Shown here: one piece after another, positions 57,041 through 59,481 of the stretch
Position numbering within the stretch: the stretch's first letter is position 1
Layout of the letters: the number at the start of each line of letters is the position of its first letter
DNA from: Effusibacillus dendaii
GTDB lineage: Bacteria > Bacillota > Bacilli > Tumebacillales > Effusibacillaceae
Assembly: GCF_015097055.1 (NCBI RefSeq)
Contig: NZ_AP023366.1
Span: forward strand, 3,313,001 to 3,377,000
Length of the DNA: 64,000 nt
Direction of reading: 5' to 3'
Translations under genes and position numbers: made by a program
Notes under the pieces: model-generated
What the model saw: only the letters and a program-made list of their open reading frames with translations
What the model was told of the DNA's origin: nothing
Database searches by the model: none

Positions 57041-57863
57041 AGAGGGTGTCCCGAAAGCCTGGCTTAGGGACACCCTCTTTTTTGGAAAAAATAACAAGAA
57101 AACCGTTCTCTTTGGTATAATTTAGTCACCACAACCAACTAACCAAAGAAAGGAACGGTTTTCTTATGTATGTTCAGTATAACATGGATCCATTAATTCT
57201 TCCAATGGATCTTGAAATCCTCATTCCCAATCAACATCTTAGCCGCATTGTCCATACCGCTGTGGAAAAGATGGTCCCCAATATCCTGAACCAACTCTTT
57301 CCCGGTGGGGGCCGTCCTTCTTTTCATCCTAAAATGATGTTAAAAGTTATTCTTTACGCCTACACCAACCGAATCTACTCTTCTCGCCAAATTGCTAAAC
57401 AACTGGGCGAAAATATTTATTTCATGTCTATCGAGGCCGTTGACAAGGAACAGACGGAGGCATGGAAGGAACAGGTCGGTCGTGTGGAAAACATGACCTA
57501 TGACGAAGAGCTAGATGAGTGGATTTGTGCCAACCAAAAACGACTCACGTTCCAATATGAAAAATACAAGCAAAGAAAGATAGACGTGGAACCTGTCTTT
57601 GGCCAAATCAAATACAATCGCGGGTTTGACCGTTTTTCCCTAAGAGGCCTATCCAAAAACACCACGGATTGGGGTCTTATTTGCATTGCCCATAATCTGA
57701 AAAAATGGGAAGGACATACCCAAAAGAAACTCAAAAAGTGTAAAGAATAGAGTCAAAAACCTTCATAACATCTACTTAACCCCATTTTTATCCAACGAAT
57801 TAAGAAAAAGAAAAAGGCTGCTCCCAAGAAATCCGTTTTTACCGACCTTTTGGGACAGCCTCC
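57041..57863 (+). mobile_element. Internally deleted IS1182-type insertion sequence
   Basis: An 823-base element bounded by imperfect terminal inverted repeats: left AGAGGGTGTCCCGAAAG (57041-57057) and right, read inward, GGAGGCTGTCCCAAAAG (57863-57847), differing at four positions. Each end also contains an internal hairpin; the left one (GGGTGTCCC / GGGACACCC then CTCTTTTTT) can terminate transcription. It encodes a shortened transposase. No clear target duplication is seen. Complete members are about 1.6-1.8 kb. Confidence 0.8.
57166..57750 (+). pseudogene. IS1182-family transposase, internally deleted
   Basis: A 194-codon frame that stays open but joins separated parts of an IS1182/DDE transposase: the N-terminal domain (LIPNQHLSRIVHTAVEKMVPNIL, FHPKMMLKVILYAYTNRIYSSRQIAKQL, to residue ~88), a fragment of the middle, and the C-terminal end (DVEPVFGQIKYNRGFDRFSLRGLSKNTTDWGLICIAHNLKKW). 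The segments holding at least the first DDE aspartates are missing. The family is usually about 450-550 residues. It cannot catalyse transposition, but its ends could be moved by a complete copy. Confidence 0.8.
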
Positions 57864-57873
57864 TACTCGATTA

Positions 57874-58173
57874 ACAGGCACAACTGCCCAGAAGGGCACA
57901 TATAGTAGACCACAGGTGAATTGTCGAATGGATGGGGACGACTTGCTTACATACTTTCTGGAGGTGACAGACATCATGCCTGGACTCTTGGCGACAGTCG
58001 CATGGTTGATTCGGGAAGTGGCGCTGTTTGTCTCGTACATTAAAAACAACGCATTTCCCCAACCGCTCTCCGAATCGGATGAAGAGAAACACCTGACACT
58101 GATGGCTGCCGGCGACGAAAACTCCCGTAATGTGCTGATCGAACACAACCTGCGGCTGGTGGTGCACATTGTC
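57874..58173 (+). repeat. Direct repeat copy 1 of the sigK 5' region
   Basis: About 300 bases nearly identical to 58678-58977 (offset 804), covering the sigK promoter, ribosome site and first ~66 codons; the few differences cluster near the right end. Identity stops abruptly within codons for VVHIV. The left edge lies 10 bases after the IS1182-type element. Confidence 0.92.
57880..57907 (+). promoter_or_regulatory. Sigma-K/E-type promoter, copy 1
   Basis: AC at 57880-57881, 17 bases, CATATAGTA (57899-57907), matching AC-N16/17-CATA-N3-TA. Same as the promoter of intact sigK. Confidence 0.55.
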
Positions 58174-58185
58174 AACACGTTGTGA
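57976..58185 (+). pseudogene. Truncated sigK copy (N-terminal 69 codons)
   Basis: Reads the sigma-K pro-sequence and start of the factor ([19 protein letters not shown] ... [11 protein letters not shown]) up to LVVHIV, then NTL and stop. It carries the same GGAGGTGA ribosome site and promoter as the intact gene, so it may be transcribed in the mother cell and give a 69-residue peptide with the membrane-associated pro-domain. It lacks the core of region 2 and all of region 4, so it cannot act as a sigma factor. Confidence 0.85.
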
Positions 58186-58343
58186 AAACGAACCAATGTA
58201 AGGAAGCGGTGCGTTTGTATGCAGCGGGAGGTTTGTGCGGTTAGGGTGAACGAGGCGATTCATCCACTGGATGGCTCCTTCTTTATCCGTTGTCGGCAGG
58301 TTATAATGTTGTCAAATCGCAACTGGAAGGAGGCTGTTTCGCT

Positions 58344-58430
58344 ATGTCCACACCGAAAAAGTTGGATCGACAAACGGCCAATGAACTTCGTTCCATTTTG
58401 ACCAGCCGTTTTACCCCCTTAACCCGTTGA
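58344..58430 (+). CDS. Possible 28-residue peptide between sigK copies
   Basis: MSTPKKLDRQTANEL start, basic, ending TSRFTPLTR. Support is a very good ribosome site (GGAAGGAGG) ten bases before the ATG and a TATAAT box near 58302. It may be the truncated 5' end of a gene from whatever DNA once lay between the two sigK parts. No family recognised. Confidence 0.35.
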   Translation: MSTPKKLDRQTANELRSILTSRFTPLTR

Positions 58431-58481
58431 TCCACTACAAAAGTTCTCGAATAAAGCAGGAATTGTAACATTATATGACGG

Positions 58482-58631
58482 GTGCATGTAAAACTTGTAG
58501 AGGGTGATTCACTGACAAGTCCGCAGATTGACAAAGAAGTATTCATTTCTGAGCGTTTCAAGCAGCAATGCAACAGAATTTCTGACGTTTTTGTTACGGT
58601 AAAAAAGTGGTTCATGGGACGAAATATTTAA
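58482..58631 (+). CDS. Possible 49-residue ORF between sigK copies
   Basis: GTG-start frame reading VHVKLVEGDSLTSPQ at the start and VTVKKWFMGRNI at the end, charged, single Cys. No clear ribosome site. It is followed 16 bases later by an intrinsic terminator, which suggests it is the 3' end of a once longer transcript. Unknown family. Confidence 0.3.
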   Translation: MHVKLVEGDSLTSPQIDKEVFISERFKQQCNRISDVFVTVKKWFMGRNI

Positions 58632-58647
58632 GAAACAACAGGATCGA

Positions 58648-58671
58648 GGACGTGGCGACACGTCCTTTTTT
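58648..58671 (+). terminator. Terminator just upstream of intact sigK
   Basis: GGACGTG (58648-58654) pairs with CACGTCC (58659-58665), followed by T6. It insulates sigK from upstream transcripts. Confidence 0.85.
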
Positions 58672-58677
58672 CTATAG

Positions 58678-58977
58678 ACAGGCACAACTGCCCAGAAGGG
58701 CACATATAGTAGACCACAGGCGAATTGTCGAATGGATGGGGACGACTTGCTTACATACTTTCTGGAGGTGACAGACATCATGCCTGGACTCTTGGCGACA
58801 GTCGCATGGTTGATTCGGGAAGTGGCGCTGTTTGTCTCGTACATTAAAAACAACGCATTTCCCCAACCGCTCTCCGAATCGGATGAAGAGAAACACCTGA
58901 CACTGATGGCTGCCGGCGACGAAAACTCCCGTAATGTTCTGATCGAACACAACCTGCGGCTGGTCGTGCACATCGTA
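58678..58977 (+). repeat. Direct repeat copy 2 (intact sigK 5' region)
   Basis: Partner of 57874-58173; begins at the bases ACAGGCACAACTG and continues into the intact gene. Confidence 0.92.
58684..58711 (+). promoter_or_regulatory. Sigma-K/E-type promoter of sigK
   Basis: AC (58684-58685), 17 bases, CATATAGTA (58703-58711). Fits mother-cell expression and sigma-K autoregulation. The start codon is about 65 bases downstream. Confidence 0.6.
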
Positions 58978-59481
58978 AAGAAGTTTGAGAACACGGGCGA
59001 AGATAACGAAGATTTAATCTCCATCGGCACGATTGGTCTGATCAAGGCAATTGAAAGTTTTCAACCGAATAAGGGAACCAAACTGGCCACCTATGCTGCC
59101 AGGTGTATTGAAAACGAAATCCTTATGCATCTTCGTTCCTTGAAGAAAACACGCAAGGATGTGTCACTGCATGATCCGATTGGAACGGATAAGGAAGGGA
59201 ATGAAATCACATTAATCGACGTGCTGGGAACCGAATCGGACGATGTGATCGATAAAGTCCAGTTAAAACTGGAGAAAGCAAAAATTTACTCCCATCTGTC
59301 GCTTTTGGACGAGCGAGAACAGGAAGTGATACGCGGGCGATTTGGGCTGCCGGACGGGGAAGAGAAAACCCAGCGAGAAATTGCGGAAGAACTGGGAATC
59401 TCGCGCTCTTATGTATCTCGTATTGAAAAGAGAGCACTAACGAAATTGCTTCATGAGTTCCGGCCGAAAAATCGGGCATAA
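58780..59481 (+). CDS. sigK: RNA polymerase sigma-K factor
   Basis: A 233-residue late mother-cell sigma factor, uninterrupted. A hydrophobic pro-sequence (about residues 1-20, [20 protein letters not shown]) precedes [12 protein letters not shown], the position where SpoIVFB cleaves pro-sigma-K. Region 2 spans [14 protein letters not shown] through [17 protein letters not shown]; region 4 has [24 protein letters not shown]. The ATG at 58780 has GGAGGTGA upstream; an earlier in-frame ATG at 58732 lacks one. In B. subtilis the gene is split by the skin element; here it is whole but has a partial duplicate 804 bases upstream. Confidence 0.95.

Follow-up and report, generated by a model that had tools for sequence, protein, structure and literature searches.

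Skin elements are the classic example of mobile DNA that resides in a sporulation gene and has to be removed from it. Three described sigK systems are among the closest to the locus considered here. In Bacillus subtilis and Clostridium difficile, skin is a large serine recombinase (LSR) element at a fixed site in sigK, and the two sites are different (PMC5025042). Island IV of Bacillus cereus biovar anthracis (22 kb) is inserted at nucleotide 195 of sigK, encodes a recombinase of 545 amino acids and is excised in sporulation (PMC10745906). The Alicyclobacillus prophage MMB025, an active phage with a SpoIVCA-type integrase, is integrated in sigK (PMC13141910). Here we describe the sigK locus of Effusibacillus dendaii in a window of 64,000 nucleotides (NZ_AP023366.1, 3,313,001 to 3,377,000), where the first part of sigK is present twice. 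The source genome of the window is labelled G000, and other G- and L-numbers denote compared genomes and loci. Coordinates are those of the window, and all features are on the forward strand.

We interpret the partial duplication of sigK as most probably an integration scar, in which copy 1 is the left attachment site (attL) and copy 2 the complete gene. The reading as a whole, to which we give a probability of about 0.88, is that attL and the left ~230 bases of an LSR element inserted after codon 66 of sigK have remained, that sigK has been made whole, and that the remainder of the element has been lost. The attachment junction, the left end of the element, the intact sigK and the same layout in other genera are seen directly in the compared sequences.

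Copy 1 (57874-58175) consists of the sigK promoter region and codons 1-66. Positions 57874-58169 align without gaps with 58678-58973 of copy 2 at a spacing of 804, with three mismatches in 296 nt (293/296 identical). The sequence-only reading had described this repeat of the promoter and the first ~66 codons and a break of copy 1 at the VVHIV codons, and both observations hold. The sigK frame is lost after codon 66, counted from the ATG at 57976 in copy 1 and 58780 in copy 2 (to 58173), and copy 1 reaches a TGA stop at 58183-58185. Copy 2 (58678-59481) is a complete sigK gene with its promoter region, the likely start ATG at 58780 and the stop at 59481; its product scores 363.8 bits with the SigK equivalog model TIGR02846 of NCBIfam (cut-off 298.65). 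The break at codon 66 is distinct from the NEILM site, at which other compared genomes split sigK. Three congeneric genomes have one sigK each, the next best match being at most 53% among the matches listed, and the boundary motif was not found in them. Thus the plain duplication considered in the sequence-only reading is not seen in these sister genomes.

The junction after codon 66 has the structure of an attachment site. The intact attP of Paenibacillus naphthalenovorans (L148) is a 50-bp inverted repeat with arms alike at 19 of 21 positions. When the right half of this attP is joined to the sigK half-site of copy 2, the resulting predicted attL matches 58145-58199 in 50 of 55 positions. 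The element half-site (P' arm, 58176-58199) matches the L148 attP at 22 of 24 positions, compared with 17 of 24 at the next best place in the window. A transposon target-site duplication had also been considered for this junction and was dropped once attP was recognised.

Similar junctions occur elsewhere. A second, decayed sigK 5' fragment of G000 (C1:1185748-1185899; L002 1501-1652) runs into nearly the same junction sequence. This fragment sits far from sigK, and past the half-site it has no match to the Brevibacillus-type left end. In G032, a member of another taxonomic family, the intact gene has a sigK 5' half 6.4 kb upstream, which breaks off at this codon, too, in similar sequence. Five of the ten additional sigK matches in G016 begin near codon 67 and are preceded by the reverse complement of the junction sequence. 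With at most two mismatches, the junction motif was found at 45 places, spread over 25 of the 398 genomes of the class, versus five places for the backward control; at this limit it misses copy 1, which has three mismatches, and nine of the 25 genomes contain a lone two-mismatch match not traced to sigK that may be due to chance.

The sequence following the half-site resembles the left ends of elements that split sigK in Brevibacillus. The relatives were reached through the junction motif and the LSR; a direct search with 58150-58677 in 14 genomes of the order yielded hardly anything outside G000 itself. Two segments of the left end (58174-58402) align with the left ends in L105 and L148, namely 58174-58254 (85% over 82 nt, E 1e-17) and 58278-58402 (75% over 126 nt, E 4e-19), and weaker, partial matches of the region occur in L101 (Brevibacillus invocatus) and L106. 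Thus the homology extends beyond the half-site. Searched against four element loci as a control, the real segment gave E 7e-21; none of 200 shuffles did better than 0.006, and none of 384 other segments of the window better than 7e-4. The first set of control segments held sigK 3' sequence matching the sigK halves (best E 4e-41), and the control was repeated without such sequence. The stretch 58403-58677, which ends in a terminator-like hairpin (about 58648-58671), has no convincing relative among the compared loci (best E 0.074 outside this locus). The sequence-only reading had taken the roughly 500 bases between the copies as unrelated sequence. This is incorrect for 58174-58254 and 58278-58402. 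Most of the first 229 nt of the interval match the element rather than ordinary chromosomal sequence.

The frame at 58344-58430, which begins in the left end, is presumed to be the start of an antitoxin gene, cut short, given the position of the gene and a sub-threshold VapB match. Its product MSTPKKLDRQTANELRSILT aligns with MSLPKKMDQQTANELRSILT in L105, and the matching gene precedes a PIN-domain toxin gene in both L148 and L105. The small open reading frames between the copies gave no match in a Pfam search.

A different origin, a simple duplication by the neighbouring IS1182 element with no element in sigK, was the main alternative in the sequence-only reading. An IS1182-type insertion sequence (IS; 57043-57862) with a shortened transposase gene (57166-57750; NF033551 match in two stretches, 194 amino acids) indeed lies 11 bases from copy 1. 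Its end was set by another genomic copy (query 1-820), and the element is found at two further places in G000, as such a duplication would have it. However, the IS is situated only to the left of copy 1, no IS is seen at the right-hand side of the duplication, and the codon-66 junction is an attachment site. A duplication by IS1182 leaves the attachment half-site, the homology of 58174-58402 to element left ends and the shared break codon in other genera unexplained, and we consider it the least probable of all explanations, with hardly any weight.

Complete elements of the same kind are still in place in relatives. PF07508 genes are present somewhere in all 16 genomes searched, and six genomes (G126, G266, G257, G274, G071, G366) have one at the sigK locus. 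These six LSRs are 47-99% identical to one another; the two that were scanned contain resolvase, recombinase and zinc-ribbon domains. Full-length sigK was not found in G126, G266, G257 and G274, only pieces cut at codon 66. In G126 the element is 9.3 kb long, and its LSR gene adjoins the sigK 3' half. Thus relatives hold an element with its LSR that splits sigK at the codon where copy 1 breaks off and runs into the family half-site and left end, in support of the scar of a skin-like element that had been suggested for sigK.

A scan of named genomes yielded 40 LSR loci, 31 of which (L139-L169) were taken as the family by our cut of at least 46% identity; the other nine are at most 34% identical. 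Four of the 31 are probably from genomes that also belong to the G-labelled set. The family is found in Brevibacillus, Paenibacillus, Cohnella, Peribacillus, Cytobacillus, Heyndrickxia and other genera. By our reading, 21 loci are directly at a sigK half and four just upstream of an intact sigK; of the rest, one has a half 1.5 kb away, one has a free attP, one shows no sigK, and three end at a contig edge. In four Paenibacillus genomes (L153, L154, L156, L157) the LSR gene and a small open reading frame lie directly upstream of intact sigK. Phage records matching the LSR (547) are all below 60%, with the 15 listed at most 28%. Five of 14 viral-contig loci with an LSR match are at 45-67% identity.

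Several of these loci are complex. In G274 (C1:306853-390902, with L114 as one end) three pieces of sigK lie on one strand; two elements, one of about 65 kb and one of about 18 kb, seem to have cut the gene at two sites. The sigK halves of G266 (L103 7186-7698 and L105 1765-1956) are 34 kb apart and in opposite orientation; recombination of one with the other would thus cause inversion, not excision. Runs of three tyrosine-recombinase genes occur within sigK elements of L101 (12733-15021) and L109 (8984-12209); the former match Phage_integrase, and the latter were judged by eye.

One possibility raised in the sequence-only reading is that a skin-like element left sigK by aberrant excision. This would account for a left end without the rest of the element and for a whole sigK. 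However, precise excision would leave a single sigK, and a second promoter with a 5' half is not produced by excision alone. Such an origin seems very improbable; the recurring layout points instead to gene-restoring elements.

The unusual part of the locus is the whole sigK next to a displaced half, a layout that recurs in G032 and Paenibacillus. Four genomes with a 5' half and an intact sigK were aligned. In all four, the homology runs from one and the same point in the promoter region (within 2 nt) as far as codon 66. The displaced and intact 5' parts are 99% identical in G000, 98.5% in G032, 87.7% in G071 and 77.4% in G366. Over the 66 codons, G071 has 31 nucleotide and no amino acid differences, G032 three and none, and G366 52 and ten; all four differences in G000 are synonymous. 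In G071 and G366 the sequence upstream of the displaced half resembles that before the intact gene of G016, and the intact gene follows the LSR, as expected if an element had brought along a promoter and 5' half of its own.

Displaced 3' halves form arrays downstream of intact sigK in four Paenibacillus-type genomes, namely G016 (L055-L059), G071 (L108-L109), G366 (L110-L113) and G286 (L116-L117). The 38 open reading frames of the G016 array include matches to models of Wadjet JetA-D, Septu PtuA and Lamassu LmuB. For 18 displaced halves and the intact genes of G016, G366, G286 and G071, pairwise synonymous divergence (dS) is 0.10-1.60 and dN/dS 0.00-0.05, except for pairs with one shorter G286 half (0.07-0.14). 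This set was restricted to unbroken halves that start near codon 67 and exceed about 140 codons, shorter or frameshifted ones being dropped; G177 retained one copy and thus formed no pair. The 3' halves of the arrays have diverged almost only at synonymous sites. Most displaced halves differ mainly synonymously, as if the elements bring replacement halves at integration.

The events at the locus may have been as follows. An LSR element would have integrated in sigK after codon 66, severing the 5' half that is now copy 1. A second promoter and 5' half, those of copy 2, would then have made sigK whole, and since sigK is whole through copy 2, excision would no longer be needed for sporulation. 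The LSR, the right end and the cargo would have been lost later, and the IS1182 copy would have come to its present place at the left edge of the scar. We infer both the action of the recombinase and the order of the losses. The way in which G000 regained its sigK 5' half can likewise only be reconstructed: we see about an even chance that it arrived with the element, and rate an origin from a tandem sigK copy somewhat lower.

Several observations weigh against this explanation. No LSR of the codon-66 family was found in G000, its three LSRs being 22-32% identical to the family, and therefore the G000 copy is a relic, not a working member of this element family. No right-hand junction was found in G000, where the motif search detected just two junctions, both of the left type. 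To our knowledge, a circle in which a sigK half replaces one attP arm is not a usual LSR substrate; because of this, gene-restoring integration by the LSR is unproven, and homologous recombination could do it. Finally, the bases just before copy 2, at the end of 58403-58677, resemble the region upstream of sigK in the congeners, a similarity easier to reconcile with a tandem copy than with a half brought by the element. Thus a serious rival is a tandem duplication of the sigK region, entry of the element into one copy, and a deletion that began within the element and stopped shortly before the second copy, the element never having carried sigK DNA. The 99% identity of the copies is in line with it. 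However, the homology starts at one promoter position in all four aligned genomes, and the 5' halves of G071 and G366 are too diverged for the second half there to be a local copy. The purely synonymous differences in G000 also speak against it, although four is few. We regard this scenario as tentative and less probable than integration of an element that brought the half.

More generally, staphylococcal cassette chromosome (SCC) elements are LSR-borne cassettes that regenerate the end of their target gene rlmH and form arrays. A similar cassette system might operate at sigK: integration after codon 66 would replace the 5' or the 3' part with the functional copy of the element, the gene would be rebuilt each time, foreign halves would pile up as scars, and anti-phage genes would ride along, G000 being a decayed 5' version. 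We consider this proposal as likely to be wrong as right. The target is sigK, not rlmH, and the two family LSRs scored fall far short of the Ccr cut-offs (best CcrB score 140.2 bits versus a cut-off of 900). The synonymous divergence of the displaced 3' halves suggests that there is another way to live in sigK, namely to bring a spare half. If this is true, these species have a mosaic sigK whose parts stem from different lineages, and the LSR and att pairs have a conserved target in spore formers. In the open-access literature, judged mostly by titles and the beginnings of abstracts, no report of displaced sigK halves or arrays was found.

MMB025 and the G000 element are both in sigK; MMB025 is an active phage, and the two are likened here irrespective of the codon used (PMC13141910). 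The codon-66 site is probably already known through island IV, as judged from its position alone, the sequences not having been aligned. Island IV is inserted next to this site and has its recombinase beside a sigK half; however, there sigK is split and the island is excised, whereas G000 has a whole sigK and a mere remnant of the element (PMC10745906). As in the skin elements, an LSR element occupies a fixed site in sigK. However, the sites are different, copy 2 of G000 is uninterrupted, and skin restores the gene by excision rather than beside a displaced half (PMC5025042).
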